Shown here: positions 23,850 to 53,020 of the stretch, in pieces
How the letters are laid out: every line of letters begins with the position of its first letter
Numbering within the stretch: the stretch's first letter is position 1
Assembly (NCBI RefSeq): GCF_003634315.1
Contig: NZ_RBXL01000001.1
Location: 2,274,501 to 2,338,500 of the forward strand
Source: Thiocapsa rosea
Lineage (GTDB): Bacteria > Pseudomonadota > Gammaproteobacteria > Chromatiales > Chromatiaceae
Direction: 5' to 3'
Length of the DNA stretch: 64,000 nt
Translations under genes and position numbers: made by a program
The notes under the pieces: model-generated
Databases searched by the model: none
Told to the model about the DNA's origin: nothing
What the model saw: the letters and a program-made list of their open reading frames with translations, nothing else

Positions 23850-25002
23850 ATGGAGCATACCGAAGTCTTAGCCGTTAATCGGGTTGATCGCCCTTCACAG
23901 GTAGTGAACCTTAACCTTTTCTTTAGCTTTTTATTCTTTTTGGTTATTGGTCTCTGGGGTGCGTTGCGCTTTTTTGGTCATGATGCAAGCGAAGATGAAT
24001 ATTTAATTAAAAACAGCATTTTGGTCTTTGCAGCATTTTTGCTTCTACCTTTTTCGTTGTGGACTCTAGTGTATCGCAAGGACTGGTTTGGCGTTGTTGC
24101 ATTAGCGCCTTCTATCTTTATAATGCCCGCTTTTTTTGTAAGTGCGATAAACCAAAACTATGACCCGTATACTGGTATTTCGGGTTTAATATTCGTACCC
24201 TTAGTGATGTGCGGAGTTGCGATATCGGTAATATTCTTTTTCCGAAGATTTGAAAACAAGATCTTTTGGACGATCGCTGGTCTTGCTATTTCTGTTTTAG
24301 TTGTATTGGACCTGGTAGTTCTATTTTTTTGGCTAACACGATCTATACTTTTATTGCTCACAATCTCTCTGCCTGTATACCTGTTATATAAAGCTTTCCG
24401 AGATAACGCAGAAGTCCTGTCATTATTGAGTCCGGGCAAGTTATTGTCTGCGACACTAAAAACACTTGCGTTATGGAGCCCCCTAAGCATCTTTATAATA
24501 GCTGGACTTTTGATGGGAAACTTTATCAACGACCTCGCGCTAAGAATCAACGAACATGCATTCAACAGTGCAGAACAAGTGACTGAGTCCGCTCTCGCCT
24601 TTGAGGATTGCTCATGGTACGACCTGGTATGCAAAAAGACAGAGAGCATCAAGCAACAAGTTCGGCAAAGCCTTGAGACATCCAAACAGCGCTTTAATGC
24701 TAAGGAACTTGTTGTCCAGATTTTGTCGCATCTCGCTCTTTTATCGAATGTTATCTTTATCTTTCTCGCTGTCAAAAGCTTTTTCTATGTTTTTGCGCGA
24801 GTTGGTGTTTCTAAAAAATACGGGCTGCATGCAACTTTAGCGAAACAATACAGAGTATCGAGCCAAAGTCTAGCAAGCAATATCAACTTGGTTGGCCAAG
24901 AATACACAACCCCACCTTTGAATACAGAAATTTTCTATGTTGTTAGAACATTAGAGGCAAGCGGCTGTCCTCCAATGATTAAGGTGCCGCAATGGAGTTG
25001 CG
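23850..25002 (+). pseudogene. Multi-pass membrane protein with AIM24-like C-terminus, 5' part (interrupted)
   Basis: The first 384 codons of a gene interrupted by an insertion sequence. At least six hydrophobic helices are visible, for example LNLFFSFLFFLVIGLWG and FFLVIGL near residue 30 and LVVLDLVVLFFWL near 155. The DNA is markedly AT-rich compared with the core, a sign of foreign origin. The frame is cut at residue 384 inside VPQWSC. Joining 23850-25002 to 27708-28222 gives an uninterrupted 555-residue protein. As it stands the product ends at a stop a few codons inside the element. No function is known. Confidence 0.75.
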
Positions 25003-25020
25003 GGCGTTGTTCATAGTCCC

Positions 25021-25796
25021 GTTGCGCCAGGCAAAGCCTGGAAGGAGAGGAAGATAGCGAACGGATAAGCCAATCGGAAACTCCTTTTTGCGACCCACCG
25101 GGTGCAAGTCCCGAGCCGGTAAGGAGTGGCCATCCACCGGAACCGAGTGTTGTGTGGTGCGGGAGCGATCCCGCCTGCGAAGCGTACACAGGGGGCGTGC
25201 AGGCCGTGTGATGGAGCCCCGTTACTGAGTTCAGCGGAGCCGACGTATTCGGAACACCGGAAGGCAACAGTTTCGGCATCGTAACGGCCTGATGTCGAGA
25301 CTCCGCCGGGGTCTAAGAGCAGGGCATGTACGCACGGGTCGTCCAGGAACCTGGGAGCGCTCAGTTGCTCCTTGCCCGAGACGCGGCGCGGGCACCGCGT
25401 AAGAAGCCGCCCCGGCCCGACGGCGCTGGTCCGGCCGACGGGAGCGAACAGGACCGACGGCAAGGTAGCGCCAAGCGAAGGCAACGAAGTGCGGCGCGAT
25501 GGCGACTGAGCAGTCAGAGTCGGCTGATAGTACCGTTGAGCGTGGGGAACGCACCCGAGCGGACCCATGGGAGGGAAGCGGCCGATCGGTTGAGACACCT
25601 TCTGAAGGGACGATGGCGTGAACATCGAGTCACCTGACCATCTGAACAGAACGACAGGAGATCGCGACATGGGCTGAATGGTCCATCGGGTGTGCGACAG
25701 TTGTCGTGCAGCGAGCGCTCAACCGAGGAGCCGGATGCGGTAGTCCCGCACGTCCGGATCTGTGGGAGCCGCGGGTGGGTAACCACCCGCGGCCAC
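25021..25796 (+). ncRNA. ORF-less group II intron inside the insertion sequence (limits approximate)
   Basis: The 3' part shows domain V (GAGGAGCCGGATGCGG to GTCCGGATCTGTGGG, about 25729-25766) followed by a domain VI hairpin with GCGGGTGGGTAACCACCCGC (about 25771-25790). Upstream it shares landmarks with the intron at 28.6 kb: GTGCAGGCCG near 25197 and GAGCAGGGCATGTAC near 25317. No reverse transcriptase lies in domain IV, so splicing or mobility would need a protein in trans. The 5' limit is inferred by alignment with the related intron. Confidence 0.7.
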
Positions 25797-25993
25797 CCGG
25801 TTCCAAGTCCGAGTCCGGAGCTTGTTAGTCGGTGTGCGGGGATTTGGCAGGACCCCCGAAATTTCTTACCCTTGGAAGTGCAAACTCACCGAGGGTTCGG
25901 AAAGATGTTCGAAGATCCTGCCGAGATTGACTTTAGACCAAGCGCGAGCGCGACGCTACCCGGACGTTCGAGACCCGGTCGGCGCATCGGCGC

Positions 25994-27670
25994 ATGACGC
26001 GGCGCACACGCTTGGAGCAAGCCGAGCACCTCGCGGCGGCCGAGATGCGGCTGGCGGCGGGGGAGACGCAACGCGCTGTGGCCACCGATATGGGTATTGC
26101 GCGCAGTACCTTGCGGGACTGGTGCGGGGACGTCCCGCGCGGGGATCCGCCGACGGGCCTGACGGCCTTCGCGCGCACCCCGGACGGGATCGCTTGGTTG
26201 CATCGGATGGTGCTTGCGGCGCATTTCAGCATCACCTTGCGGGCGGCGGGTGGCACCCGGCTGGTGAGTGAGTTTCTGGAACTGAGCGGACTGTCGGCCT
26301 TCGTCGGGGTCAGCGACGGCGCGCAGCACGCGCTCAATGTCGCCTTGGAAACGGCCGTGGTCGCGGTGGCCGCGGAGCAGCGCACGGCGCTTGCCGAGGG
26401 CATGCCGGCGCGTGCGGTGACGGTGTGCGAGGACGAAACCTTTCATCCGGGGATCTGCTTGGTCACCATCGAGCCGGTGTCGAACTTCATTGTCCTGGAG
26501 CAGTACGCCGCGGATCGCACCGCGGCGACCTGGACGGCCGCGCTGCAAGGCGCCTGCACGGGGCTCGCCGTGGAGGTCATCCAGAGCACCGCCGACGAGG
26601 CCAAGGCGCTGCGTCGGCATGCCGAGACGGATTTCGGTGCTCACCACTCCCCGGACCTCTTTCACGGCCAACACGAACTCTCCAAAGCCACGTCCTTGGC
26701 GTTGGCGCGCGATCTGCGCCAGGCTGAAGCCGGCGTCGCCGCCGCGCAGATACGATGGGAGGCCGAGCGCGCGGCGCAGCAGGCGTTCGAGGCGCGCTTG
26801 CCGCGCCCGCTCGGGCGTCCACCGGCCTTCGAGACCCGCATTGCCGCCGCCCTGAGCGCGCTGGTCGCCGTCGAAGCCGAACGCGACCGCGCACGGGAGC
26901 GGCAGACCGAGGCGCGTGAATTGATCCGCGAACTCGGTGTGCTGTATCACCCGTATGATCCGGTGGATGGACAGACGCAGCCGGTGGAGCGCGTGGCGGC
27001 GCGCTTCACCGACGTCTGGACGCGCCTGAAGGGATTGGCCGAGGCCGCCGACCTGCCCGAGCGCGCCCGCGAACGCATCATGAAGGCCGAGCGCCTGACC
27101 GTGCAATGGCTCGCCACGCTTGCGTTCTTCTTCGCCACCGTGAGCGCCAGGGTCGATGCCCTCGGGCTGTCCCCGGAGCTGGAAACGGCGGTCCTCGAGC
27201 AGCTCATCCCCGGCATCTACCTCGAGCGCGTCGCCTCCCGCAGCACCGCGGCCGAGACCCGACACCGCGTGCAGGCGGTGAGTACCGCGTTGCTCGACGC
27301 GCTGCGTCGACCCGATCATCCGCTGCAGCGTCTCGCGCCCGAGGACAGCGCTCGGGTCGAACAGGTCGCCGGCGCCTGCGCCGATCTGTTCCAACGCAGC
27401 AGTTCCTGCGTAGAAGGACGCAACGGCCAACTGTCGCTGCATCATCACGGGCGTCATCGTTTGAGCGACCGCAGGCTCGCCGCACTCACGGGCGTGCACA
27501 ACTTCCACATCCGCCGCCCCGACGGCACGACCGCCGCCGAGCGCTTCTTCGGGAGGACACACCTCGCGCTGTTCGAGCAGATCCTCCTGCGCGTGCCCTT
27601 GCCGCCGCGACCGCGACGCCGACGGCCACGCCCGCCGAAACTGCCCTATCTGATGCCGGTCGCAGCCTGA
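25994..27670 (+). CDS. Transposase of a poorly described family (DUF6399-like), copy 3
   Basis: A 558-residue protein, complete. An N-terminal helix-turn-helix (ETQRAVATDMGIARSTLRDW, about residues 20-40) precedes a probable RNase-H fold: VTVCEDETFHPG (about 145), FGAHHSPDLFHGQHELSKA (about 220) and SSSCVEGRNGQLS (about 475), which would supply an acidic DDE-like triad. The C-terminus is basic and proline-rich. Relatives occur at 39303-41021 and 51170-52888. The family is known to me as DUF6399; the transposase role is inferred from inverted repeats and target duplications. It is in the same orientation as the split host gene. Confidence 0.85.
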   Translation: MTRRTRLEQAEHLAAAEMRLAAGETQRAVATDMGIARSTLRDWCGDVPRGDPPTGLTAFARTPDGIAWLHRMVLAAHFSITLRAAGGTRLVSEFLELSGLSAFVGVSDGAQHALNVALETAVVAVAAEQRTALAEGMPARAVTVCEDETFHPGICLVTIEPVSNFIVLEQYAADRTAATWTAALQGACTGLAVEVIQSTADEAKALRRHAETDFGAHHSPDLFHGQHELSKATSLALARDLRQAEAGVAAAQIRWEAERAAQQAFEARLPRPLGRPPAFETRIAAALSALVAVEAERDRARERQTEARELIRELGVLYHPYDPVDGQTQPVERVAARFTDVWTRLKGLAEAADLPERARERIMKAERLTVQWLATLAFFFATVSARVDALGLSPELETAVLEQLIPGIYLERVASRSTAAETRHRVQAVSTALLDALRRPDHPLQRLAPEDSARVEQVAGACADLFQRSSSCVEGRNGQLSLHHHGRHRLSDRRLAALTGVHNFHIRRPDGTTAAERFFGRTHLALFEQILLRVPLPPRPRRRRPRPPKLPYLMPVAA

Positions 27671-27707
27671 GGGCGGTGGACGGGATAATGAACAAGGCCG
27701 AGTTGCG

Positions 27708-28222: not shown

Positions 28223-28239
28223 TAAATCTCGCACGAGAC

Positions 28240-28599: not shown

Positions 28600-30710
28600 G
28601 TGTCAAGTTAAATTCAGATCCTTGGAATCGGAACGGAGACCGTGAAATTGGATAGCGTTACCCAGTGGGTGAGGGGTGACCCAATTCCCATGAGAGGCGG
28701 CTAGCCACCGACTCTGTAGCGAACCTGCGTGCATAACCCGCAAGGGTGTGTATGAAGCCAGGTGTAGCGAGTGTGCAGGCCGCGTGACTGAGTTCCGAAA
28801 AGATATGGTTGTGGTCCATGAGGATAACCGAGCGCGAGCTTGGGAAAGCCGACGGCATCAAGGCGCCGGAAGGCTGTAGTCCTTGGAGCGCTAGGGCGAG
28901 CGACGAGGACACCACCGGGATCGACGAGCGGGGCATGTACACACAGGGGTAGCCTGGGAACTTGAGAGGACCGTCATCTCCTTGTGGAGAGCACCGGTGA
29001 GGCACGCCGGTCAAGAGTCGGGCCAGGCGCGGCCAGGGTCATCGTCGCACCCGGGCAGCGAACCCGCGAGGGGACACAAACGCAAGCGAACGAGCACAAG
29101 GTATCGGGAAGCGAGCTTGAGGCGAAGCAACCCGAGATGGAGAAACGGTCGTCTTAGCTGAGCATAGTACCGAAGGCTGAAAGTTGGAGAGCCGAGAAGG
29201 CGGGGAACCGAGACCCAAGGGACCCGCTGTAGGGAAGGCGACGCCGGGCATAACGTATTGTCGTGGGGAAAGATGAGCGGCACACAGAGGTCAATCTTCA
29301 TCGAAACACCACTGCGGCAAATCGCAGAGCAAGCGATCGAGCATCCGGATCGGGTCTTCACAAGCCTGATCCACCGCATGGACTTGGACCTTCTACGCGA
29401 GGCCTTCTACGAACTGCGTCGAGATGGCGCACCGGGATTCAGTGGAATCACGGTCAAGGACTACGCCAAGGACCTGGAGGCCAACCTCGAGGACCTCCAC
29501 CGGCGGCTGAGGACGCGGAGCTATGTGGCCCCGCCGATCAAGCGCGTGTGGATCGACAAGGACAACGGAAAGAAACGTCCGATCGGACTCGTGGAAATCG
29601 AAGACAAGATCGTCCAGAAAGCGGTATCGATACTGATGGGGGCGGTCGTGGAGCAAGACTTCCTGCCGATCTCCTATGGCTTTCGGGAGGGGCGCAACGC
29701 CCATGACGCCCTCGCGGACCTACGCGAGCAGTGCATGACGCACGGTATTCGATGGATCTATGACGGAGACATCACAGGATTCTTCGACAACCTTGACTGG
29801 GGCTGGCTAAGGGAGTTCATTCAGCGCCGGATCAATGATGGTGGGATACTTCGGCTGATCGGGCAGTGGTTACATGCCGGCATCATCGAGGGAGAAGAGA
29901 TCAGCTATAGCGATAAAGGAACGCCACAAGGCGGGGTCATTAGCCCCTTGCTGGCGAATATCTATCTCCACTACGTACTGGATGAGTGGTTCGAGACTGA
30001 AGTCAAGCCACGGATGAGAGGGCATTGCTTCCTCGTACGGTTTGCCGATGACTTCGTCATCGGCTTTCAGAATGAGAACGATGCACGGCGCGCCATGGAA
30101 GTGTTGCCGAAGCGCTTCGGGAAATACGGACTACAACTGCATCCAGAGAAGAGCCGCCTCCTCGATTTCAGTCGGCCGGCGCGTGCACAAATGCGCGGGC
30201 GGGGAGCCAACACATTCGACTTTGTCGGATTCACCCACTACTGGGCGAGGTCAAGGCGGGGATTTTGGGTCATCAAGCGCAAGACCGCACGGAAGAAAGT
30301 CAGGAAGACGATCCAGGGGATCTGGGAGTGGTGCCGCCGGAACCGGCACCGCAACATTGAGGAGCAGCACCGCGTGCTGTGCTCAAAGCTGCGCGGTCAC
30401 TACCAATACTTTGGCGTGCGTGGAAACTCGCGCGCCATGGCGGCGGTACTGGACCGCGTACGTCGTGCTTGGCGGTACTGGCTGCATCGGCGCAATAGCA
30501 AGAAAGCGATGCCATGGAAGAAGTTCGCGGCATTGCTGGAACGTCTGCCGTTGCCGAATCCCAAAATCCTCCACGCCGTCTGATCGTTGGCGGGGTAGCG
30601 AAGTTATGTGTCGGGAGTGGTGTTGCGCTCCTGATAACCGAGGAACCGGATGACCGAATTGGTCACGTCCGGATCTGTGGGGGGGATGGCTCAGTAATGG
30701 CTGTCTCTAC
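28600..30710 (+). ncRNA. Group II intron 1 with reverse transcriptase (limits approximate)
   Basis: The 5' RNA domains fill 28600-29270 and share landmarks with the ORF-less intron (GTGCAGGCCG near 28773, GAGCGGGGCATGTAC near 28928). The reverse transcriptase follows. Domain V (GAGGAACCGGATGACCGAA to GTCCGGATCTGTGG, about 30639-30680) and a domain VI hairpin (about 30684-30708) end in TCTAC, a typical AY 3' end. It stands just after a hairpin at about 28540-28575, a common site for group II introns. Confidence 0.75.
29273..30583 (+). CDS. ltrA: Group II intron reverse transcriptase/maturase 1
   Basis: A 436-residue intron-encoded protein that reverse-transcribes and helps splice its intron. 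RT segments visible: DGAPGFSGITV, RPIGLVEIEDKIVQKA, YDGDITGFFDNL, GTPQGGVISPLLANIYLHYVLD, and the catalytic box FADDFVI, with Phe instead of the usual Tyr. The maturase region follows (HYWARSRRGFWVIKRKTARK) and a GIIM-like end (RGHYQYFGVRGN). No HNH endonuclease domain is seen. ATG at 29273 follows GGGGA; an upstream TTG is less likely. Confidence 0.9.
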   Translation: MSGTQRSIFIETPLRQIAEQAIEHPDRVFTSLIHRMDLDLLREAFYELRRDGAPGFSGITVKDYAKDLEANLEDLHRRLRTRSYVAPPIKRVWIDKDNGKKRPIGLVEIEDKIVQKAVSILMGAVVEQDFLPISYGFREGRNAHDALADLREQCMTHGIRWIYDGDITGFFDNLDWGWLREFIQRRINDGGILRLIGQWLHAGIIEGEEISYSDKGTPQGGVISPLLANIYLHYVLDEWFETEVKPRMRGHCFLVRFADDFVIGFQNENDARRAMEVLPKRFGKYGLQLHPEKSRLLDFSRPARAQMRGRGANTFDFVGFTHYWARSRRGFWVIKRKTARKKVRKTIQGIWEWCRRNRHRNIEEQHRVLCSKLRGHYQYFGVRGNSRAMAAVLDRVRRAWRYWLHRRNSKKAMPWKKFAALLERLPLPNPKILHAV

Positions 30711-30779
30711 CCGGACGGCGCGGCTGGTAACAGGCGCGTCGATGCGTAGGCACGAAAGCAGGCGAGGTGTAAGGGTAAC

Positions 30780-32510
30780 GGGTGGAGCCGACCTTGAAGG
30801 TATTGAGCCCCGAAAAGAACATGGGTGAGTGCCGACGGGTTTGTCCCCCCGGCAGGCAACAGACCGTGACGCGCTGTGGCGAGTGGCACGGGAACTCCCC
30901 GGGGTCCGAGACCACATCGAGCCTGACATCGAGAGTACGCGGTAACCAGGGAGATCCGTGTATCGGTCCGCCGGAGGCGGGCACCCGCGAACAAGTGTCA
31001 AAAGCGAGGACGCGGGCAGCGATGCGCGGAAGTCGGAGCCACCTGGAGTAGCGTTGATACCCGGTAATGCGGGTGGAGCGAAGGGGTGGCGGTTTGAGAC
31101 AACGCAAGAGTGAAACACGGCCCTACACCGAGAGGACTCTGACCGTGACCAGCAAGCTTGAGCGTTTCACACTGAAGGCGCACGCGGAGCCGCACACGCG
31201 GTTCACGTCCCTGATGGGCATGCTGTTTGACCCGGAGGGGTTGCGCGAAAGCTTCGAGCGCCAGGACGGACGCAAGGCGCCCGGAGTCGACGGGGTCAGG
31301 AAGGACGACTATGCAGTGGGTCTGGACGCGCGTCTGGAGGATCTGTCGGCACGGATTCGCCGTCTGGGGTACCGGCCTCTGCCGGTGCGGCGCACCTATA
31401 TCCCGAAAGGGGATGGCCGCTATCGGCCGTTGGGGGTGCCGAGCTTCGAGGACCGCCTGGTCCAAGATCGCCTCAGCCGCATTCTTCAGGCCATCTGGGA
31501 ACCGGAGTTTCGGGACTGTTCGTTCGGGTTTCGGCCGGGTCGCAGTGCGCACGATGCGCTGCGCCGGGTGGCCGAAGTGATCACCAACGGGCGCACGCAG
31601 TGGGTCGTGGAGGCGGACATCAAAGGGTTCTTTGACCATTTGTCACACTCCCACCTCATGGAATTCCTGGAGCACCGCATCGGCGATCCCAATCTGTTGC
31701 GGATCGTGCGACGGTTCCTGAAGGCCGGCATCATGGAAGACGGCGCGTTCACGGCCAGTGAAGAGGGCGCCCCGCAAGGGGGTCTGGTCTCGCCCGTGCT
31801 CAGCAATATCTACCTGCACTATGTGCTCGATCTCTGGTTCGAGAAACGGTTTGCGGGAATGTGCACGGGACGGGCGTACCTGATTCGCTACGCCGACGAC
31901 TATGTGGCCTGCTTCGAGCACGAAGGCGATGCACGGGCCTTTCTCACCAAGATGACCGCACGTCTGGCGCAGTTCGATCTGGAGGTCGAGCCGAGCAAAA
32001 CGGCACTGCTGCGTTTCGGCAGCGACCAGCTGGGTCGGACGCGGGCGGAGACGTCCGAACCGCGGACCTTCAGCTTCCTCGGCTTCACCCATTATGTCGG
32101 GAAGAGCCGGACGGGGCGTTTCGTCGTCGGGCGCAAGACCGACGGCAAGCGGGTGCGCAAGAAGCTCGCGCTCTTGAACGAGCGCTTGCGCGGGCTGCGG
32201 GCGCAAGGCGGACGGGCGATGGTGGCATACCTGATCCGGCATCTGCGCGGACACATCCAGTATTACGGTGTGAGCGGCAATAGCCGGGGCGTATCGGGTT
32301 ACCTCTACGCCGCGACGGGCCTGTTGTTCAAATGGCTCAACCGGCTCAGCCAACGGCGTTCGTTGACCTGGAAGCGCTTCTACGCGGTCATCAAGCCCAT
32401 GCTCCCGACGGCGCGGATCATTCACGACCTCTACCCCGTCCCTTGGTGGAAGACTCAAGCTGGGAGCCGGATGGTGTAACACTCCAAGTCCGGTTCTGCG
32501 AGGAGCCGGG
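30780..32510 (+). ncRNA. Group II intron 2 with reverse transcriptase (limits approximate)
   Basis: It starts within 70 bp of the end of intron 1. The 5' segment 30780-31140 has the GC-rich domain I style of sequence. Domain V lies at about 32468-32505 (GAGCCGGATGGTGTAACACT then AAGTCCGGTTCTGCG). The region after it to about 32690 shows no clear domain VI, so the 3' end may be lost. The reverse-transcriptase frame runs into domain V. Confidence 0.65.
31145..32479 (+). CDS. ltrA: Group II intron reverse transcriptase/maturase 2
   Basis: A 444-residue intron-encoded RT. Motifs: DGRKAPGVDGVRKDDY, RPLGVPSFEDRLVQDRLSRI, FGFRPGRSAHDAL, VVEADIKGFFDHL, GAPQGGLVSPVLSNIYLHYVLD and the catalytic YADDYVA. 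The maturase part contains GFTHYVGKSRTGRFVVGRKT and RGHIQYYGVSGN. GTG at 31145 has AGAGGA about 9 bases upstream; an earlier in-frame ATG at 31067 would add 26 arginine-rich residues from the RNA region. No endonuclease domain. It is clearly different from the first RT, so the two introns arrived separately. Confidence 0.9.
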   Translation: MTSKLERFTLKAHAEPHTRFTSLMGMLFDPEGLRESFERQDGRKAPGVDGVRKDDYAVGLDARLEDLSARIRRLGYRPLPVRRTYIPKGDGRYRPLGVPSFEDRLVQDRLSRILQAIWEPEFRDCSFGFRPGRSAHDALRRVAEVITNGRTQWVVEADIKGFFDHLSHSHLMEFLEHRIGDPNLLRIVRRFLKAGIMEDGAFTASEEGAPQGGLVSPVLSNIYLHYVLDLWFEKRFAGMCTGRAYLIRYADDYVACFEHEGDARAFLTKMTARLAQFDLEVEPSKTALLRFGSDQLGRTRAETSEPRTFSFLGFTHYVGKSRTGRFVVGRKTDGKRVRKKLALLNERLRGLRAQGGRAMVAYLIRHLRGHIQYYGVSGNSRGVSGYLYAATGLLFKWLNRLSQRRSLTWKRFYAVIKPMLPTARIIHDLYPVPWWKTQAGSRMV

Positions 32511-32809
32511 AACGAACCGTCGTATGGCCGAGATCATGTGGCACCGCCGGGAAACCAGGCGGCAAACAGAGAACACAAACGTCAGCCTAACCGATGGCAA
32601 GGACCCGGCTTACTCTCCGATTCCCGTCCTCTTCTCGACTGAAAGGGAGAGCCAAGACACTCAAGTAACTTAGGCAAATGAAAAGTGCCTAGGGGATCAG
32701 CACTGAAAGTACGGGTGCGGAAACTACGCGTGAATACTGCTGGTGCCCGATCAAATGCACTAGTGCGTTCGGCAGTACCAATGGCGTGGCTGGGATGCCC
32801 TTTCCCATG
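32511..32809. other. Gap between intron 2 and the helicase promoter
   Basis: No gene is recognised. The first part may be degenerate intron 3' RNA; the second (about 32690-32809) is presumably the upstream region of the helicase operon. Confidence 0.5.
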
Positions 32810-32876: not shown

Positions 32877-35507
32877 ATGTCGATGCAACCAGGAGATAAA
32901 ATCAGGCTGAAAGCGAACCCCGGACGGATTGGGATTCTTGGCAACGAGACCGACGGCCCCCTCCATCGGTTGCGGGTGTTAGTTCATTTCCTTGACGGTG
33001 ATGAGCAGTTCATTCTTCAGGGCTCACTGGAGAAGGTCATCCATGGCGCAGCCGGAGCTTATGCAATGATTCAGGCCGGCCGCTACGGCCGGGTCACCGA
33101 TCTGCGCGGTGCCATCACCTACTACCGTCTGAGTGGGCGACTTGCCAATTTGATCTACAGCCTCAACACCACAAATACCGATTTCCTTGCCTATCAGTTC
33201 AAGCCGGTGCTTCAATTTCTCGACTCCCCTTGCAACGGAATTCTGATCGCCGATGAGGTGGGACTCGGCAAGACTATAGAGGCTGGTCTCATCTGGACCG
33301 AGCTACGGGCACGTGTTGATGCGCAGCGCCTGCTGGTGGTATGTCCAGCGATGTTGCGGGAGAAATGGCGAGAAGAATTGATCGATCGCTTTGGTGTTCA
33401 GGCCGAGATCGTCAATGCGCAGGTACTACTTGATCGACTGGCGTCGCTGAAACGTCGACCTCAACAACAGTTCGCGCTGATCGCCAGCCTCCAAGGTATG
33501 CGCCCGCCTCGGGACTGGAACCCGGACGATCACGCAGAGACGTCTCAGACGCCCGCCGCGCAACTGGCGCGTTTTCTTGCCGACTCTATGCTCGATGACG
33601 CCTTGCTCGATCTGGTGGTCGTGGACGAGGCTCATTATTTACGCAACGCGGAGACCCTAACACATCGTTTCGCCCGCCTCCTGCGACCGGTCACCCACAA
33701 CCTGGTCATGCTTACGGCGACCCCGATCCAACTGCGCAGCCGTGATCTGTACACGCTGTTGCACTTGCTCGATGAAGATGCCTTCCCTTATGAGAATTCC
33801 TTCGAGCAGACCTTGCGCGCCAATGCGCCTGTGGTCGCCCTGCGCGATCGAATTTTAGGCGGGAAGGTGACCCAGACCGATTTCGAGTCGACAATACGGG
33901 AAGCGATCCAAAGCCGAATCTTCGGCGACAACGAGCAGCTTGACTATCTCCTTCAGAATCCGCCAAGCGACGAGGAGTTACTGTCACCACGTGGGCGAGC
34001 GGAGATCAGTGAGCAACTCGACCGGATCAATCCACTGGCGAAAGTAGTGACGCGGACACTGAAACGTGATGTGCAAGAGATGCGGGTCCAACGCACGCCG
34101 GTAACCATACGTGTGGAGATGAACCCGACGGAGCGCGAGTTCTACCTCCAGGTGACCGAAGCGGTACGTGATTTCTGCGCCCGATTTGCCGTCTCCGAGG
34201 GTTTCATGCTGACCATTCCCCAGAGGCAGATGTCGAGTTGCATCGCCGCAGCTTGTCAGGGGTGGATCGAGCGGGCGGGCGACATTGATGAAGAGGAGCT
34301 GGAGGAGTCTGTCTTTGAGTTGTTTGGAGATTCGGACGAACCCGCCCAGAGACCCACTCTGGGGCCACTGTTGTTGACCCTGGTCGGCATTGCGCGCCGG
34401 GTCGGGGATGATCGTGTGCTAAAAGCTGGGGACACTAAGTATGCCGAACTGGTTGCAAACATCAAACGCTATTGGGAGAACTATCCGGGCCACAAGATTA
34501 TCCTCTTCTCTTTTTATCGCAAAACCCTGCACTACCTAGCTAAACGGCTTGCGTCCAATGGGATACTGTCGGTTGTGTTACACGGGGGCATGGACAAACA
34601 AGCGGCATTGCGCCGTTTCGCCGCGCTCGACGGTCCAAACCTTTTGCTGTCGTCTGAGGTCGCCGCAGAGGGCGTGGATCTTCAGTTTTCCAGCTTGTTG
34701 GTTAACTACGATCTGCCGTGGAACCCGGCACGCATCGAGCAACGCATTGGACGAATCGACCGAATCGGGCAGACAGCCGAGCGGATTCTGATTTGGAACT
34801 TCATCTATGCAGACACCATCGACGACCGGATCTACAACCGATTACTTGTCCGTCTGGATGTATTCAAGCAGGCGCTGGGCAGCGTAGAGGCGATGCTCGG
34901 CGAGGAGATCCGCAAACTGACCTATGAGCTGTTGTCCCACAAGCTCACGCCTGAGCAGGAAATCAACCGCATCGAGCAAACCTGCCAGGCGGTCGAAAAT
35001 ACCAACCGTTTACAGGCGGAGCTGGAAGAGGAGGCTACCCGACTCATCGCGCATGGCGAGTTCATCCAGAACAAGGTGCGCGCCGCTCGCGAACTGGGGC
35101 GCTATTTGCGCGGAGAGGATCTGTTGGCCTATGTCCGTGATTTTCTGGAGCGGGATTATCCAGGCACCCGGATGCTCGCCGCTGATGACAACCACCTGGA
35201 GCAGACACTCGAACTTTCAACCGAGGGACGAGTCGCCTTTGCCGAGTTTCTGTCCGCCCATCAGTTGGGAGCTACGGGCATTCTGGCATCTTCACCACCA
35301 CGGCTGTTATTTGAGAACCGTCTCGGCCGCGTTCAGCATCAAGTGGAGCGCATTACCCAGGATCATCCGCTGGTGCGGTTCGTGGCCTTGATCATCGCTT
35401 GGTCCAAAACCCAGTGCAAACGTAGAGATAGGGCCGATCTTTGCTTGCTAATCAGCGCCTTACGCCGAGATACCATGCTCCCGTCGGCTGGGCGGACCAA
35501 ACGATGA
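32877..35507 (+). pseudogene. SNF2/RapA-like helicase, N-terminal part, truncated by a MITE
   Basis: A superfamily 2 DNA translocase that uses ATP. A small beta-barrel-like N-terminus (MQPGDKIRLKANPGRIGILG) is followed by Walker A in GILIADEVGLGKTIEAGL (about residue 125), the DEAH box VVVDEAHYLRNA (about 248), LTATPIQL, and helicase domain 2 with SSEVAAEGVDLQFSSLLVNYDLPWNP and RIGRIDRIGQT. Native codons end at 35383; from 35384 to the stop at 35507 the frame reads the 132-bp MITE, giving a false tail (ALIIAWSKTQ...). Joining 32877-35383 to 35524-36139 restores a 1040-residue protein. All ATPase motifs survive upstream, so partial activity is possible. It is first in a probable operon with the Hsp70-like gene. 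Confidence 0.85.
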
Positions 35508-35523
35508 TCGAGGCCCGGTTCGT
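35376..35523. mobile_element. 132-bp MITE related to the CVEGRNG-family insertion sequences
   Basis: The element spans 35384-35515. The left end GGCCTTGATCATCGCTTGG and the complement of the right end GGCCTCGATCATCGTTTGG match the ends of the full insertion sequences at 39274 and 51141. The left side matches further (TCCAAAACC). CGGTTCGT is duplicated at 35376-35383 and 35516-35523. It has no coding capacity and would need the transposase of a full copy. Confidence 0.92.
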
Positions 35524-36139
35524 CAGCGAGCGTCTGAAGCTCGCAGGGTGTGGTCCGCTGTATTGCCCGGTTTCAGCCGTGGAGCTGCAAGCCCAGATCC
35601 TCGGTCCGGTCGAAGCAGGGATCTATGTTTATGCCGTCGCCCGTTGGACCGTCTCCGGCGCTCGGGAGATCGAGCGGCTCGACTATCTCGTACGACGACT
35701 CGATGGGAAACGCATCGACGGTGAGCAGGCTGAGTCTCTCGTCAATATTGCCGGCCTTGAAGGCAAGGACTGGTTGGGTGCCATGAACAGCCTCGATCAC
35801 GCCCTTGTCGCCGACGTGCTGGATGAGTGCCGGACCGAGCTGGAAGCGCGTTTCCGGGCGTTCAGTGAAGCTCAGGCGCGCGAGAACCGTGACCGCGTTA
35901 ATATGATGGTTAATACCTTGCAGCACCATCTCGATCAGAAGCGTCAGACACTCAATTCTCGTATCAACGATTTTCAGCGGTTCGGGACGGATCGGCAGCG
36001 GCGTATCATTCCCGCTCTAAGCGGGCAACTGAATAAGCTGCAACAACGTATAGAAACGAAGATAAAGGAACTGCGGCTTAAGGAAAAGACAACAGCTCAG
36101 GATAGTTTAGTGTCGGGTGGAGTAATCCGGGTAATCTAA
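35524..36139 (+). pseudogene. SNF2/RapA-like helicase, C-terminal part
   Basis: After removal of the MITE the protein continues HPLVRFVSERLKLAGCG and YCPVSAVELQAQIL, then a long coiled-coil-like stretch (ARENRDRVNMMVNTLQHHLDQK) and ends SGGVIRVI. This C-terminal part has no helicase motif; in related enzymes such regions bind partners or DNA. A frame from about 35441 or ATG 35503 covers it and could be translated separately, so the two halves may still be made as two polypeptides. It is followed 23 bp later by a small gene on the same strand. Confidence 0.8.
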
Positions 36140-39273: not shown

Positions 39274-41152
39274 GGCCTTGATCATCGATTGGTCCACTGT
39301 TGCTAAGCCGCCACAGGAACGAGGTAAGGCTGCCTTGCCGGGCGCGGTCGTCGTCGGGCCGGTCGGGCGGGCCAGGGCATGCGCTCGAGCACCTGCTCGA
39401 ACAAGGATGGGTGGGGTTGAGCGAAGAAGCGCTCGGCGGCCGTGGTGCCGTCGGGCCGCTTGATCGCAAAGTTGTGCAGGGCGGTCAAGACCTGCTGCTT
39501 GCGCGGACTGAGTCGGTGATGCCCGTGCTGATAGAGCGCGAGGAAGCCGTTGCGTCCCTCGACACAGGAGCTGCTGCGCTGGAACAGATCGGCACACTCC
39601 CCGGCGACCTGCTCGAGATGGTGACGGGTCTGCGGATCCAGCGACTGGATCGGGTGCGAGGGCTGCCTCAGCGGGGCGAGACGCTGCGCACTCAGTGCTC
39701 GGAGTCGATGACGGGGCTCGGCGCGGGTGCTGCGTGCGGCGACGCGCTCCAGATAAAGCGCCGGGATCAGATCGTCGAGCATCGCCTGCTCGATGGCCGG
39801 TGCCAGGTCCAGCGCCTGCACCCGGGTGTTGACCATCATGAAGAAGAAGGTCAGCGTGGCGACGAGGCTTTGAGTCAGGCGCTTCGCCTTGGCCAGATGT
39901 GCGCAGAGACGCTCGGAAAGATCCGCTTCCTCGGCGATCGCCTCCAGGCGCGCAAACAGCGTTCCCAGACGCGCCTCCAACTGCTCGGGGGTTTGCGCCT
40001 GTCCCTGTTGGATCTCGTAGGGATGATCGACCTCGCTGAACGCACCGATCAGGGCTTTGGCCTCGGCGCGGTGCGCGTGGGCCTGCTCGCGCGCAAGGCT
40101 GGCTTGGACGTAAGCGCTCAGCGCCTCGTCGATGCGCGCGGCGAACGCCGGCGGGCGCCCGGGGCCGTGGCGGCGCCGATGATAGGCCTGCTCGGCGGCG
40201 CATTCGTCTTGCCAGCGCGCCTTCGCCTCGGTCTCCGCCGTCTCGGCCTGTTGCTCGGCGCGCTTCAGCGACAGACTCATCGCCTGGCTGACCTCATGCT
40301 GCAGATGAAACAGGTCCGTGGCATGGTGTGCGCCCAGATCACGCTCGACATGCGCCAACAGCCCCTTGGCCTCATCGCTGGTGCCTTGCACCACCGTGAC
40401 ATTCAGCCCCTCGAGTCCACCCTCGAGCGCCCGTGTCCAGGCCGCCGCCGAGCGCTCATCGCTCCTGTGCTCGAGCAGGATGAAGTTCGAGACCGCATCG
40501 ATGCCCACCAAACGCATGCCGTCTTTCCACGTCTCATCTTCGGCGATGCTCAGTGTGCGATGGGGCATGGCTTGGGCCAGCGTCCCGCGCAGTTCGGTGG
40601 CGGCGGTGACGATCTGCTCCTCCAAGCCGGCATGGAACGCCTGCTGCGCACCGTAGGAGGCGCCGATGAATGCCGACAGCCCACTGCGCTCGAGAAAATC
40701 GCAGACCACGCGCACGCCCGCGCCGCCCTGCTCGCCGATGCTCCAGTGCGCGGCAACCAGGATCCGGCGCAGCCACACCACGCCCTCGGGCGTCTCGACG
40801 AAGGCCGACAGCGCCGCCGGCGCCGATGGCGCAGGGGACGCGTTCCAGTGACGCAGGGTGCTGCGCGCCACGCCGGCGCCGCTGACCGCCGCGCGTTGAC
40901 TCTGCCCATCCTGCTGGGCTTGCGCCACCGCATGCAGGTGCTTGGCGCGATCCAAGCGATCGTGGATTGGCGTGGGGCGTCGATCTGCACTAGAGTCGAC
41001 ACAGGCAGGAGCATCGGACAACGGCGTTTCCCTCGGTCAGTTTGCACTTCCAAGGGTACGCCTCCCCGGCGCTCCTGCCACTCCTTCAGGATGCTTGATC
41101 GCCTACCGAAACACGCGGTTTTGGACCAACCGATGATCAAGGCCGATTTTGC
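39266..41152 (-). mobile_element. Insertion sequence of the CVEGRNG-transposase family, copy 1
   Basis: The element spans 39274-41144 (1871 bp). The ends GGCCTTGATCATCGATTGG and, inverted, GGCCTTGATCATCGGTTGG match over at least 22 bp with one difference. GATTTTGC is duplicated at 39266-39273 and 41145-41152. It has the same length as copy 2, to which it is nearly identical, so transposition is recent. Confidence 0.95.
39303..41021 (-). CDS. Transposase of the CVEGRNG (DUF6399-like) family, copy 1
   Basis: A 572-residue intact protein. Helix-turn-helix QRAAVSGAGVARSTLRHW (about residues 40-58), then LSIAEDETWKDGMRLVGID (about 175), LGAHHATDLFHLQHEVSQAM (about 245) and SSSCVEGRNGFLALYQHGHH (about 490) as candidate catalytic regions; ends RRPRPARQPYLVPVAA. 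A conserved leader (TACCCTTGGAAGTGCAAACT, inverted at about 41036-41058) precedes the gene in all three copies. It differs from copy 2 at about eight residues. Confidence 0.88.
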   Translation of the reverse strand: MSDAPACVDSSADRRPTPIHDRLDRAKHLHAVAQAQQDGQSQRAAVSGAGVARSTLRHWNASPAPSAPAALSAFVETPEGVVWLRRILVAAHWSIGEQGGAGVRVVCDFLERSGLSAFIGASYGAQQAFHAGLEEQIVTAATELRGTLAQAMPHRTLSIAEDETWKDGMRLVGIDAVSNFILLEHRSDERSAAAWTRALEGGLEGLNVTVVQGTSDEAKGLLAHVERDLGAHHATDLFHLQHEVSQAMSLSLKRAEQQAETAETEAKARWQDECAAEQAYHRRRHGPGRPPAFAARIDEALSAYVQASLAREQAHAHRAEAKALIGAFSEVDHPYEIQQGQAQTPEQLEARLGTLFARLEAIAEEADLSERLCAHLAKAKRLTQSLVATLTFFFMMVNTRVQALDLAPAIEQAMLDDLIPALYLERVAARSTRAEPRHRLRALSAQRLAPLRQPSHPIQSLDPQTRHHLEQVAGECADLFQRSSSCVEGRNGFLALYQHGHHRLSPRKQQVLTALHNFAIKRPDGTTAAERFFAQPHPSLFEQVLERMPWPARPARRRPRPARQPYLVPVAA

Positions 41153-41567: not shown

Positions 41568-41569
41568 CT

Positions 41570-48900: not shown

Positions 48901-49433
48901 TGTACGACCCGCAGTGCTTCAAGGGCAATCGCATCCAGCAACTCAAGGCCAAACTCGACGCACTCAAGCAACGGGTGGAGCAGCAGGTTAGCCAAGCACA
49001 CACCAAGGCGCAGGGCGTTCTCGACGACCTGCAGCGGCGCCTGCACAACATGCCCGAATACCAGAAGCTTCCAGCCGAGCGCACCGAGGAATTGAACGCA
49101 CCGTTCAAGGAACTGCAACACCATATCGCACAACAGAAGTTGATCGCCGTGATCAACGACCGGCTGCGCTACTTCGAAGAGCAGGGCTATCAGAAGCTGC
49201 TCGACAGGATGTTCGACCTGCTCACACCCAAGCCGGAACCGGGGCAGGACACGGATGGCGTAAAACCTGCTGCGGTCAAGGAGCCGCGCCCGCAGTATGT
49301 CGCAGCCAGGCAACTGCGCGTGCCGTTCGACAAGCCACTGCTGAGCACGGCGGAAGATGTAGAACACTACCTGGTACAGCTTCGTACGGTGCTGATGGAG
49401 CAGGTCCAAGCCGGAAAACGGGTGCAAGTCTGA
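45912..49433 (+). CDS. brxC: BREX ATPase BrxC (DUF499/P-loop)
   Basis: A 1173-residue ATPase, usual length for BrxC. The P loop is GFFGSGKSHLLKML (about residue 65). A Walker B-like segment LNFFVDEVGQYIADN follows (about 255), then VIVTAQEDL. The rest is largely helical and charged. It is 19 bp downstream of brxB, and its TGA overlaps the pglX ATG (TGATG at 49431). BrxC is needed for phage exclusion and host methylation in type 1 BREX. The frame is intact. Confidence 0.95.
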   Translation: MTTLRDIFAKPIDRAIEGVIKADDDASLRLEVEEYVLTNEVEKRLESFLDAYNNYEGANGVWVSGFFGSGKSHLLKMLALLLEDREVDGASTLDLFLPKCGDNEILRGDIKRAVAIPSKSVLFNIDQKADVISKTQIDALLAVFVKVFDEMCGYYGKQGHIAQFERDLDGRGLYAGFKQAYEKIAGRAWETGREQALLESKNIANAYAEVAGGDAADATGILDKYRSEYRVAIEDFAQKVQAYLDQRSKDFRLNFFVDEVGQYIADNVKLMTNLQTIAESLATKCRGRAWVIVTAQEDLNTVVGEMTQQQGNDFSKIQDRFKNRMKLTSADVAEVIQKRLLAKNEAGVGQLSDTYHVEVNNFKTLFGFADGSQTYRNFQDRDHFIHSYPFIPYQFPLFQAAIQNLSQHSAFEGKHSSVGERSMLGVFQQVAVQIGDRPVGRLATFDLMFEGIRTVVKANIQRAILQAEHHLDDAFAIRVLKALFLVKYVKEFKPTIRNLCVLMLEDLDADLPKLAKKVEGALNLLEQQTYIQRNGELYEYLTDEEKDIEQEIKNTEVETSDVADELQKLIFDQVLRAKKIRFDKNGQDYAYSRKLDDRLHGREQELAIHIVSPFHEHADNESMLRTNSTYKQDELFVVLPQEDRLMRDILMFKKTEKYIQQNVSVTQQESIKRILTDKGFQNRDRYNQLKDLVGSLLGKAKLLVAGSDVEVSSEDPESRINRGFHELIGRAYPNLRMLRGITVTEADVGNYLRHSKDGLFGGDATSLAESEQELLSFIQSNSRGGVRTTLKSLIEKFERKPYGWYYAAILCNLANLCARGKLEVRADSTLLEDDALERALLNTHGYNNVVLEPTVEFTAAQVRRLKEFFGDFFDAPPSSGEAKALGKETNAKVQALMTELDRLHAQADRYPFLNGLGPVLAKLKDLASKPYTWYLTEISREEDALLDMKEQLIDPVRKFMGGSQKAIYDEAKTFLKDQDANFTYVDTPELEEVRSTLYDPQCFKGNRIQQLKAKLDALKQRVEQQVSQAHTKAQGVLDDLQRRLHNMPEYQKLPAERTEELNAPFKELQHHIAQQKLIAVINDRLRYFEEQGYQKLLDRMFDLLTPKPEPGQDTDGVKPAAVKEPRPQYVAARQLRVPFDKPLLSTAEDVEHYLVQLRTVLMEQVQAGKRVQV

Positions 49434-51140
49434 TGGAAACCAGCAAACTGAAGAAATTCGCCCAGGCCGCACGCCGTTCGCTACGCGAGCAGGTCACCGC
49501 GAAATTGGCGTTGGTCCTCGGTGCGGAAAGCGCAGCACGACGGGAACGCCCCGAGGCCGTCAAGAAACTCGAAGAGGCGATCAAGAACCACGGTAAGGAT
49601 CAGGTCATCGAGCGGGTAGCCTATATCTGGTTCAACCGCTTTTGTGCCCTGCGCTTCATGGATATGAACCGCTACACCCGCATTGGCGTGGTGTCCCCGG
49701 CGGACGGCCAGTCCCAGCCCGAGATCCTGGCCGAGGCCAAGATGGGGCATATCGACGAGGATCTGGCGGACCAGAAGACAAGGCAACACATCCTCGACCT
49801 GCTCGCAGGCAAGGCACCCAGCCTCGATCCGCAGGGCGAGGCATACCGGATACTGCTCGTGGCCTCCTGCAACGACTGGCACAGGGCCATGCCGTTCCTG
49901 TTCCAGCGCATCGACGACTACACCGAGTTGTTGATGCCGGACGGATTGTTGGCGGCCAACTCGATCCTGGAAGCGACCCGCGAGGCGATGACGCCGGATG
50001 CCTGCGAGGATGTCGAGGTGATCGGCTGGCTCTACCAGTTCTACATCTCCGAGAAGAAGGACGAGGTGTTCGACGGCCTGAAGAAGAACAAGAAGATCAC
50101 GCCCGAGAACATCCCCGCCGCCACCCAGCTCTTCACTCCGCACTGGATCGTGCGGTACCTGGTGGAAAACTCCCTCGGCCGTCTGTGGTTGCTGAACCGT
50201 CCCGGCTCCAAGCTGATCGAGCAGATGGACTACTACATCAAGCCCGAGCAGCCGGAAACCGACTTCCTGAAGATTGGCAGCCCGGAAGACATCAGGATCT
50301 GCGACCCGGCCTGCGGTTCCGGTCACATGCTCACCTACGCCTTCGACCTGCTCTATGCCATCTATGAGGAGGAAGGCTACGAGCCCGCCGAGATCCCGGA
50401 GAAGATCCTCACGAATAACCTCTACGGTATCGAGATCGACGAGCGCGCTGGAGAGCTAGCCGCCTTTGCCCTAACCATGAAGGCTCGCGCCAAGCAGCGC
50501 CGGTTCTTCAACAAGGGCGTCAAGCCAAACATCTGCGTGCTAGAAAATGTCCGCTTCGACGAGGACGAGCTGAAGGAGTACACGGATTTTGTCGGGCGCG
50601 ACCTGTTCACGGCACCGTTGAGAAGCACCCTGCGTCAGTTCGAAGAGGCCGACAACTTCGGCTCGCTGATTCCTCCGGATGTCACCGACGTGGACGGGAT
50701 GCTCAGGATTCTGGAGTCAAAGAATGTCTCTGGGCAGCTGTTTATCAGCATGACTCATCAAAAGGTGCTGCAAGCCCTGCGGCAGGCTGATTACCTGAGC
50801 CCGAAATACCATGTGGTGATTGCCAATCCGCCTTATATGGGTGGCAAGGGGATGAATGGGAGACTGGCAGCGTGGCTTAAGGATAACTACTCCGATGTGA
50901 AGTCTGATCTGTTTTCCGCGTTCATGGTACGAAACACAGAGCTGGCATTGCCGAAAGGCCAGCTAGGGTTTATGTCACCGTTCGTGTGGATGTTCATCTC
51001 GTCCTTCGAGAAGCTACGTAGTTTTCTTATCAATCAGAAAACCATCACATCCCTAGTGCAGTTGGAATATTCGGGTTTTGATGGTGCTACCGTACCTATT
51101 TGTACCTTCACAGTTGAAAATGCCCACAACCCGGATTTCG
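49433..51140 (+). pseudogene. pglX: BREX adenine methyltransferase PglX, 5' part (interrupted)
   Basis: The first 569 codons of the BREX DNA adenine-N6 methyltransferase, which marks host DNA and is needed for defence. AdoMet motif I DPACGSGHMLTYAFD is at about residue 290 and the catalytic NPPY motif in VIANPPYMGGKGMN at about 464, so the methyltransferase core is here. The gene is cut in NPDF by insertion sequence copy 2 at 51141; the frame then meets a stop at 51146-51148. The target-recognition and C-terminal parts are lost from the product. Precise removal of the element and one 9-bp target copy restores a 1184-residue protein. Confidence 0.93.
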
Positions 51141-53020
51141 GGCCTTGATCATCGATTGGTCCACTGTTGCTAAGCCGCCACAGGAACGAGGTAAGGCTGC
51201 CTTGCCGGGCGCGGTCGTCGTCGGGCCGGTCGGGCGGGCCAGGGCATGCGCTCGAGCACCTGCTCGAACAAGGATGGGTGGGGTTGAGCGAAGAAGCGCT
51301 CGGCGGCCGTGGTGCCGTCGGGCCGCTTGATCGCAAAGTTGTGCAGGGCGGTCAAGACCTGCTGCTTGCGCGGGCTGAGTCGGTGATGCCCATGCTGATA
51401 GAGCGCGAGGAAGCCGTTGCGTCCCTCGACACAGGAGCTGCTGCGCTGGAACAGATCGGCACACTCCCCGGCGACCTGCTCGAGATGGTGACGGGTCTGC
51501 GGATCCAGCGACTGGATCGGGTGCGAGGGCTGCCTCAGCGGGGCGAGACGCTGCGCACTCAGTGCCCGGAGTCGATGACGGGGCTCGGCGCGGGTGCTGC
51601 GTGCGGCGACGCGCTCCAGATAAAGCGCCGGGATCAGGTCGTCGAGCATCGCCTGCTCGATGGCCGGTGCCAAGTCCAGCGCCTGCACCCGGGTGTTGAC
51701 CATCATGAAGAAGAAGGTCAGCGTGGCGACGAGGCTTTGAGTCAGGCGCTTCGCCTTGGCCAGATGTGCGCAGAGACGCTCGGAAAGATCCGCTTCCTCG
51801 GCGATCGCCTCCAGGCGAGCAAACAGCGTTCCCAGACGCGCCTCCAACTGCTCGGGGGTTTGCGCCTGTCCCTGTTGGATCTCGTAGGGATGGTCGACCT
51901 CGCTGAACGCACCGATCAGGGCTTTGGCCTCGGCGCGGTGCGCGTGGGCCTGCTCGCGCGCAAGGCTGGCTTGGACGTAAGCGCTCAGCGCCTCGTCGAT
52001 GCGCGCGGCGAACGCCGGCGGGCGCCCGGGGCCGTGGCGGCGCCGATGATAGGCCTGCTCGGCGGCGCATTCGTCTTGCCAGCGCGCCTTCGCCTCGGCC
52101 TCCGCCGTCTCGGCCTGTTGCTCGGCGCGCTTCAGCGACAGACTCATCGCCTGGCTGACCGCATGCTGCAGATGAAACAGGTCTGTGGAATGATGCGCGC
52201 CCAGATCACGCTCGACATGCGCCAACAGCCCCTTGGCCTCATCGCTGGTGCCTTGCACCACCGTGACATTCAGCCCCTCGAGTCCACCCTCGAGCGCCCG
52301 TGTCCAGGCCGCCGCCGAGCGCTCATCGCTCCTGTGCTCGAGCAGGATGAAGTTCGAGACCGCATCGATGCCCACCAAACGCATGCCGTCTTTCCACGTC
52401 TCATCTTCGGCGATGCTCAGTGTGCGATGGGGCATGGCTTGGGCCAGCGTCCCGCGCAGTTCGGTGGCGGCGGTGACGATCTGCTCCTCCAAGCCGGCAT
52501 GGAACGCCTGCTGCGCACCGTAGGAGGCGCCGATGAATGCCGACAGCCCACTGCGCTCGAGAAAATCGCAGACCACGCGCACGCCCGCGCCGCCCTGCTC
52601 GCCGATGCTCCAGTGCGCGGCAACCAGGATCCGGCGCAGCCACACCACGCCTTCGGGCGTCTCGACGAAGGCCGACAGCGCCGACGGCGCCGATGGCGCA
52701 GGGGGCGCGCTCCAGTGACGCAGGGTGCTGCGCGCCACGCCGGCGCCGCTGACCGCCGCGCGTTGACTCTGCCCATCCTGCCGGGCTTGCGCCACCGCAT
52801 GCCGATGCTTGGCGCGATCCAAGCGATCGTGGATTGGCGTGGGGCGTCGATCTGCACTAGAGTCGACACAGGCAGGAGCATCGGACAACGGCGTTTCCCT
52901 CGGTCAGTTTGCACTTCCAAGGGTACGCCTCCCCGGCGCTCCTGCCACTCCTTCAGGGTGCTTGATCGCCTACCGAAACACGCGGTTTTGGACCAACCGA
53001 TGATCAAGGCCCGGATTTCG
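51132..53020 (-). mobile_element. Insertion sequence of the CVEGRNG-transposase family, copy 2, inside pglX
   Basis: The element spans 51141-53011 (1871 bp, same as copy 1). Its ends match those of copy 1. CGGATTTCG is duplicated at 51132-51140 and 53012-53020, a 9-bp duplication versus 8 bp at the other sites. The transposase gene is opposite to pglX. Confidence 0.95.
51170..52888 (-). CDS. Transposase of the CVEGRNG (DUF6399-like) family, copy 2
   Basis: A 572-residue intact protein nearly identical to copy 1; visible differences include HLHAVAQAQ/HRHAVAQAR and LQHEVSQ/LQHAVSQ. All candidate catalytic regions are kept (AEDETWKDG, HHSTDLFHLQH, SSSCVEGRNG). The unbroken frame and recent divergence suggest that it is or was recently active. 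Confidence 0.88.
   Translation of the reverse strand: MSDAPACVDSSADRRPTPIHDRLDRAKHRHAVAQARQDGQSQRAAVSGAGVARSTLRHWSAPPAPSAPSALSAFVETPEGVVWLRRILVAAHWSIGEQGGAGVRVVCDFLERSGLSAFIGASYGAQQAFHAGLEEQIVTAATELRGTLAQAMPHRTLSIAEDETWKDGMRLVGIDAVSNFILLEHRSDERSAAAWTRALEGGLEGLNVTVVQGTSDEAKGLLAHVERDLGAHHSTDLFHLQHAVSQAMSLSLKRAEQQAETAEAEAKARWQDECAAEQAYHRRRHGPGRPPAFAARIDEALSAYVQASLAREQAHAHRAEAKALIGAFSEVDHPYEIQQGQAQTPEQLEARLGTLFARLEAIAEEADLSERLCAHLAKAKRLTQSLVATLTFFFMMVNTRVQALDLAPAIEQAMLDDLIPALYLERVAARSTRAEPRHRLRALSAQRLAPLRQPSHPIQSLDPQTRHHLEQVAGECADLFQRSSSCVEGRNGFLALYQHGHHRLSPRKQQVLTALHNFAIKRPDGTTAAERFFAQPHPSLFEQVLERMPWPARPARRRPRPARQPYLVPVAA

Follow-up and report, generated by a model that had tools for sequence, protein, structure and literature searches.

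A DUF6399 protein as the probable DDE transposase of an insertion sequence family in Thiocapsa rosea

As a rule, insertion sequences (ISs) of the ISL3 family have ends that start with GG and make an 8-bp target duplication. RmInt1, a mobile group II intron with ISRm2011-2 as its target, is a precedent for an intron specialized on an IS. Among IS256 elements, ISCth4 has catalytic residues D175, D241, and E348, with C262/H265 and a helical insertion, and a C/DxxH motif has been described for it (PMC7780238, in part). The duplications of the Mutator-like element Muta1 are 8 or 9 bp long (PMC5225508, in part). Here, we analyzed a 64,000-nucleotide stretch (the window, C1:2274501-2338500) of the 6.1-Mb Thiocapsa rosea genome that carries related elements encoding a protein of the DUF6399 family. 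We consider it very probable that these elements form an active or very recently active IS family, a lineage of its own, with the DUF6399 protein as its DDE (Asp-Asp-Glu) transposase.

Ends, target duplications, and copies

The window holds two IS copies of 1871 bp, one diverged copy of 2697 bp, and two miniature inverted-repeat transposable elements (MITEs) of 132 bp that belong to the DUF6399 family. Their positions, the putative transposase genes, and the open reading frames (ORFs) that they interrupt are as follows.

10212..10343, + strand: MITE, 132 bp, interior family B; duplication CCTCGCAC
25003..27699, + strand: diverged subfamily copy, 2697 bp; duplication GAGTTGCG; ORF 23850-25016 runs into the copy
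25994..27670, + strand: putative DUF6399 transposase gene, 558 amino acids, product 52% identical to the 572-amino-acid protein
35384..35515, + strand: MITE, 132 bp, interior family A; duplication CGGTTCGT; interrupts the gene for a DrmD-like helicase
39274..41144, - strand: complete IS copy, 1871 bp; duplication GATTTTGC; interrupts ORF 38084-39463
39303..41021, - strand: putative DUF6399 transposase gene, 572 amino acids; TTG start as listed
51141..53011, - strand: complete IS copy, 1871 bp; duplication CGGATTTCG; splits BREX-1 pglX
51170..52888, - strand: putative DUF6399 transposase gene, 572 amino acids, inside the IS copy 51141-53011

A preliminary description of this DNA had placed elements at 25003, 35384, 39274, and 51141, each with an 8-9-bp duplication. 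Both coordinates and duplications were correct when re-read directly, and CGGATTTCG at 51141-53011 is a true 9-bp duplication. The MITE that it described at 35384-35515 is real, but the second one at 10212-10343 (CCTCGCAC), outside the range it considered, had been missed. The end that it took to be common to all elements held in part: the pattern GGCCTTGATCATCGNTTGG, with up to three mismatches allowed, had eight matches in the window where shuffling predicts 0.10, but the ends of the 25003 copy (GGCGTTGTTCATAG / GGCCTTGTTCATTA) differ from it. The terminal inverted repeats (TIRs) of the copy at 39274-41144, GGCCTTGATCATCG-TTGGTCCA, match at 22 of 23 bp. In a de novo scan for inverted GG..CC ends flanked by exact duplications of 8 bp, which by design missed the 9-bp case at 51141, we recovered five elements in the window versus 0.15 per shuffled window; four belong to the DUF6399 family, and the fifth is an ISL3 element at 18417.

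Matches to the protein across the genome numbered 26, comprising 21 complete copies, one truncated copy, two diverged full-length proteins (encoded at C1:5111784 and in the 25003 copy), and two remnant pieces that overlap and belong to a single remnant. Every complete copy (21/21) is 1871 bp long and has both the inverted ends and a perfect target duplication, of 8 bp in 18 cases and 9 bp in three. The 18 8-bp duplications share no strong motif, with a mild excess of G at position 1 and of C at position 8 (9/18 each). Ten of the 21 copies are identical, and pairwise differences have a median of 2/1871 and a maximum of 78. There are at least eleven 132-bp MITEs, counting those whose ends show in a 3-mismatch search (loci L027, L030, L044, L049, L055, L057-L059, and L061; window 10212 and 35384), and all 11 carry an 8-bp duplication; 10 of 21 sources lacked a pair of ends, and most of these 10 gave single end-like matches. 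The MITEs have two unlike interiors, family A (seven) and family B (four), both exactly 132 bp in total, and family A agrees with the IS 5' end at 27 of 28 nt from its start.

Mapping of empty sites, which the preliminary description had suggested together with that of the copies, gave one for an IS, one for a MITE, and one for a 232-bp element. For the IS copy L014, the flanks are contiguous in congener G002, where a single CAG[C/T]TCCC 8-mer remains; the MITE L030 has an empty site in congener G004. The third case is a palindrome-rich nonautonomous element (L068, 473-704) with related ends and an 8-bp duplication, at whose position several congeners are empty. The comparison covered 23 loci, among which both flanks were recovered for one of the 21 IS sites (right flanks searched together); several of the 21 IS flanks are genomic repeats and offer no clean empty site. 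The numbers of copies and their near-identity suggest that the family is, or was very recently, active.

GTCCACC-type palindromic repeats were also seen in the window at 9796-9875, 11490-11569, and 18274-18353, and similar sequence follows the group II intron (see below) in L246 and L249. Some of these repeats may be interiors of further MITEs.

Of 93 relatives, 14 had DUF6399 (8 of 83 genera), as did 11 of the 398 genomes sampled from the phylum, eight of these 11 above the curated cut-off; the T. rosea genome is counted in each set. All 14 control genomes lacked it. It also occurs on Thiodictyon, Crinalium, and Acaryochloris plasmids and as a fragment in Methylomonas. Only one relative was found among viral contigs, and a phage search gave no DUF6399 protein match. 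When 26 relative loci were scanned for ends, GG ends with 8-bp duplications bracketed the gene in 10 (one with a single mismatch in the duplication), compared to 0/26 in shuffled sequence. Another 15 loci showed no ends, several of these being cut by contig ends, and the end pair at L073 was judged to be due to chance. All 18 end bases match (18/18) in both the Crinalium plasmid element (L143, 2102-4606; duplication CGTTTTCT) and the viral contig element (duplication TTCATTTT). Both the Thiodictyon plasmid and L123, which stems from a different family in the phylum, likewise keep the element anatomy. The independent recurrence of GGC ends with 8-bp duplications in members whose proteins are 22-30% identical to the window protein, such as those of the cyanobacterial plasmid and the viral contig, is the strongest sign that we are dealing with one coherent family.

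Whether the DUF6399 gene itself moves these elements can be judged from the same data. A passenger or accessory gene carried along by another transposase would be compatible with the long open frames antisense to the DUF6399 gene and with a further small gene (hypothetical protein, locus 2291-2740) that the Crinalium element carries between its ends, and the catalysis and fold that we propose for the protein are drawn from its sequence and a low-confidence model. We nevertheless regard this explanation as highly improbable: the 572-amino-acid gene fills ~92% of the 1871-bp element, the gene lies between the ends in relatives, and the protein has DDE-like invariant residues.

We also weighed whether the DUF6399 elements already are a named ISfinder entry or ISNCY group. 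ISfinder keeps an uncharacterized class, ISNCY (PMC10132070, in part), and ISAm1, an unclassified element with a DDE transposase and a 14-bp inverted repeat that is known here by its description (PMC8763236, in part), comes from Acaryochloris, a genus with DUF6399. On the other hand, the annotated plasmid records that were found name the protein DUF6399 domain-containing or hypothetical, and no paper in the literature searched contained the word DUF6399, although neither observation tests ISfinder. Among the matches listed from the literature on ISNCY groups and on Thiocapsa/Thiodictyon insertion sequences, available as partial text, a description of the DUF6399 family was absent. An existing name is a genuine possibility, albeit one that we think is outweighed.

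The DUF6399 protein and its place among DDE transposases

DUF6399, named in the preliminary description, is indeed the sole significant Pfam match of the protein (residues 414-560). D162-E163-T164, D216, D236, H239, and E488-G-R-N-G are invariant in 16/16 proteins, down to 22% identity, and a C-terminal HNF...R.D.TT.A.R is also conserved. In the window proteins, D236..H239 reads DLFH and D216 sits in TSDEA. We infer from this conservation that D162, D216, and E488 form the catalytic triad.

To place the protein, we used family profiles built from gammaproteobacterial copies, mostly Chromatiaceae (rows kept after a length filter: ISL3, 9/17; IS66, 11/12; IS256, 6/13). HHalign gave a score of 34.9 (E 0.002) for DUF6399 versus IS256 and of 29.3 (E 0.012) versus ISL3, where the best of 200 column shuffles reached 26.6 and 23.1, respectively (0/200 as good in either case), and reversed profiles scored 15.7-20.8. 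The resemblance to ISL3 noticed in the preliminary description is thus supported at the profile level, though IS256 scores slightly better. IS66 was tried as a relative and rejected (E 0.41). The ISL3 profile has Asp/DxFH opposite D162, D216, and D236xFH. In the IS256 profile, the D of VGD stands opposite D216, and CxxH opposite D236xxH. These alignments, together with the order and spacing of residues in ISCth4 (20 between D216 and D236 versus 21 between D241 and C262; PMC7780238, in part), make D216 most likely the second catalytic Asp, and we read D236 as the D of the C/DxxH motif beside the active site. The D of TDLF, D236, had earlier been put forward as a catalytic residue, but D216 is the more likely one; D236-L-F-H239 aligns with ISL3 DxFH and IS256 CxxH.

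In an AlphaFold model of the 572-amino-acid protein (14-row alignment; predicted local distance difference test [pLDDT] 74), which has a low-confidence core, two strands are followed by a helix, a third strand, another helix, a long helical region, and then the helix with E488, and D162 lies where the first strand ends; the order in the viral-contig relative (pLDDT 60) is similar. An RNase H core interrupted ahead of the E488 helix would show this order; the pLDDT in the core is below 50. Because the catalytic segments have low confidence in both models, we claim no triad geometry and do not consider the fold established.

Several observations weigh against an active family with a DDE transposase. 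The HHalign E-values against IS256 and ISL3 are marginal, and D162 lies off the first catalytic Asp in the IS256 alignment. The E488 region is outside both alignments, so the likeness of CVEG to the GFVEGLNN region of ISL3 transposases, proposed in the preliminary description, was not borne out. Pfam gave no significant DDE match and NCBIfam no match at all to the protein, and the Pfam helix-turn-helix (HTH) models reached E 0.027-0.06, under their cut-offs, with the 558-amino-acid protein only. Solved structures yielded no match in a sequence search and only weak HTH-like and chance matches in a profile search (best E 0.033). The modeled pLDDT is below 50 at 162-187, 215-219, 222-235, and 482-491, the catalytic segments, and Foldseek searches of the PDB with both models returned nothing significant (best E 0.041 and 0.27). 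Finally, the young copies could stem from a past burst instead of current activity.

Among these chance Foldseek matches was an avian sarcoma virus integrase core (rank 9, E 0.74), which was not counted. In PHROGs, nothing was significant for the 572-amino-acid protein, and DNA-binding and terminase HTH models matched the 558-amino-acid protein at E 0.0045-0.017.

Taken with the invariant residues and the IS256/ISL3 profile alignments, the DDE assignment made in the preliminary description is still the best reading of the protein. Could the family then be a divergent subgroup of IS256 or ISL3? D216 and D236xxH line up with IS256; with ISL3, D162 lines up too. The window's own ISL3 element likewise combines GGC ends (GGCTCTCCCGGA) with a duplication of 8 bp. 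However, neither PF00872 (IS256) nor PF01610 (ISL3) was reported for the DUF6399 protein at a limit of E 10, although HMMER filters drop most matches above ~0.1. Known families are also closer to one another (ISL3 versus IS66, E 1.4e-7; ISL3 versus IS256, E 2e-5) than DUF6399 is to any of them, with IS66 versus IS256 (E 0.016) no closer. We therefore find subgroup status unlikely. With a profile nearest to IS256/Mutator and ISL3, yet reported by neither family's model, DUF6399 is most likely a family-level lineage of its own among the DDE transposases that carry a helical insertion domain.

The ISL3 element used for comparison is as follows; the genome has 20 ISL3 genes with nearly equal scores.

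18417-19909: ISL3 element; ends GGCTCTCCCGGA, duplication GGGGCGCG

In the mechanism that we propose for the DUF6399 transposase, an N-terminal HTH-like domain would bind the 19-23-bp GGC... TIRs, and a putative RNase-H-like DDE core (D162, D216, E488), with D236xxH239 beside the active site and interrupted by an all-helical insertion of ~245 residues, would cleave the ends. Insertion would occur with an 8-bp, sometimes 9-bp, stagger, by either a cut-and-paste or a copy-out/paste-in route, and the same protein may mobilize the 132-bp MITEs in trans.

A group II intron in the element ends and the interrupted genes

The copy at 25003 had been called more diverged. It does represent a subfamily, with a 52% identical protein, but it also carries a group II intron that begins 18 nt inside its left end. 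The copy equals a 1917-bp subfamily element, the length found in its close relatives L092 and L117, plus ~780 nt of intron.

25021..25797, + strand: group II intron without an ORF, compared over 777 nt; Rfam RF02005 (149.8 bits) at 25105-25321
Intron loci: window 25021-25797; L237-L249, L251, L253-L255, L262, L263, L271

The genome contains 11 copies of the intron, identical over 777 nt. We compared 20 distinct close sites from five genomes, with ≥97% identity over the first 70 bases of the intron. All but L247 (19/20) have element-end sequence, at 11-12 of 12 positions, at one fixed upstream offset, for which the chance rate in the window is 29 of 114,484; this fixed-offset null replaced an earlier any-offset null (3% at ≥10/12) that was too lax. 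The end motif was written after the first 14 intron sites had been seen, and the six sites in other genomes that were seen only afterward all fit (6/6). Among eight further rows in which the intron ends are more diverged (78-85%), three reach ≥10/12 and five, one of them masked, do not.

The sequence downstream of the intron differs between most sites, and at L243, L244, and L245 the intron sits in an entire MITE flanked by an 8-bp duplication. Judging by these sites, it seems that the intron inserted separately into different elements. A longer relative in the genome, L249, encodes a group II reverse transcriptase/maturase of 479 amino acids (343 bits against a cut-off of 300), and this reverse transcriptase may move the ORF-less intron in trans. 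Elsewhere in the window, at 28600-32560, two more group II introns lie close together with their own reverse transcriptases (29258-30583 and 31067-32479).

The preliminary description stated that elements had hit four genes of one island, and we found the same four: ORF 23850-25016, a DrmD-like helicase, ORF 38084-39463, and BREX-1 pglX. Neither Pfam nor NCBIfam gave a match to ORF 23850-25016, which extends into the element at 25003, or to ORF 38084-39463, which shows one weak 26-residue PADLOC stretch. The split genes and a nearby tRNA gene are as follows.

22809-22884: tRNA-Thr
32877..35507, + strand: DrmD-like SNF2 helicase, 5' part, running into the MITE; PADLOC PDLC02623 positions 1-830
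35441..36139, + strand: DrmD-like helicase, 3' part, ORF beginning inside the MITE; PDLC02623 positions 844-1006
49433..51148, + strand: BREX-1 pglX, 5' part, interrupted by the IS; NCBIfam NF033452 positions 1-620
53476..54867, + strand: BREX-1 pglX, 3' part, a listed ORF; NF033452 positions 777-1209

Between 44670 and 61699 lie the BREX-1 genes brxA, brxB, brxC, pglX (split), pglZ, and brxL, with a GmrSD-type restriction gene between pglX and pglZ. Because the IS broke pglX and the MITE broke the DrmD-like helicase gene, both defense genes are probably inactive. A 68-nt direct repeat (96%) at 22837-22904, covering the 3' part of tRNA-Thr, and at 61932-61999, 39 kb apart, suggests a tRNA-integrated island, of which the repeats are probably the attachment sites; no integrase was identified. 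A tandem 8-bp repeat of CACGGAGA (~13 units) occupies 1932-2067.

Comparison with known systems

Our analysis offers a proposed function for a family that databases list without one, and annotators could name such genes transposases. The fresh copies, empty sites, MITEs, and distant relatives are material for an assay and for placing the branch near IS256, ISL3, and hAT. The locus is also an example of a BREX-1 phage-defense operon broken by an IS, and the intron in the terminal repeats offers a test case for the spread of group II introns without a reverse transcriptase of their own. On a broader proposal, our judgment is evenly balanced: that DUF6399 is an unnamed IS family forming a separate prokaryotic branch of helical-insertion DDE transposases (with IS256/Mutator, ISL3, and hAT), found from purple bacteria to cyanobacteria, and that its ends in Thiocapsa are the home of a trans-spreading ORF-less intron, with IS, MITE, and intron sharing one end sequence.

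Like RmInt1, the Thiocapsa intron is a mobile group II intron living in an IS; unlike RmInt1, it is ORF-less and sits in terminal repeats common to several kinds of IS and MITEs. With ISL3, the DUF6399 elements share GGC-starting ends and an 8-bp duplication (as in the window's ISL3 element, the one copy compared), thus following the GG start and duplication length typical of that family, as well as the DxFH motif and a D-E-T context in the profile alignment. They differ from ISL3 in their TIR sequence, in their predicted long helical insertion, and in the marginal profile score.

With IS256/Mutator, as represented by ISCth4, they share a DDE core with a helical insertion (predicted here) and a C/DxxH motif ~20 residues after the second D (PMC7780238, in part). 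A W aligns before the second D in both, D236-x-F-H239 is invariant, and the duplications (18 of 8 bp and three of 9 bp) resemble the 8-bp duplications of IS256/Mutator and the 8 or 9 bp of Muta1 (PMC5225508, in part). In contrast to IS256, DUF6399 proteins have DxxH instead of CxxH and a predicted insertion of ~245 amino acids instead of 65; their elements have GGC... ends, not scanned for the subterminal TGTAAA described for IS256. A precedent for an uncharacterized group becoming a family is IS1202, raised out of ISNCY in 2023, which is unlike the DUF6399 elements in having 5-bp duplications, TGT ends (in the Acinetobacter elements), and a TnsB-like transposase (PMC10132070, in part).

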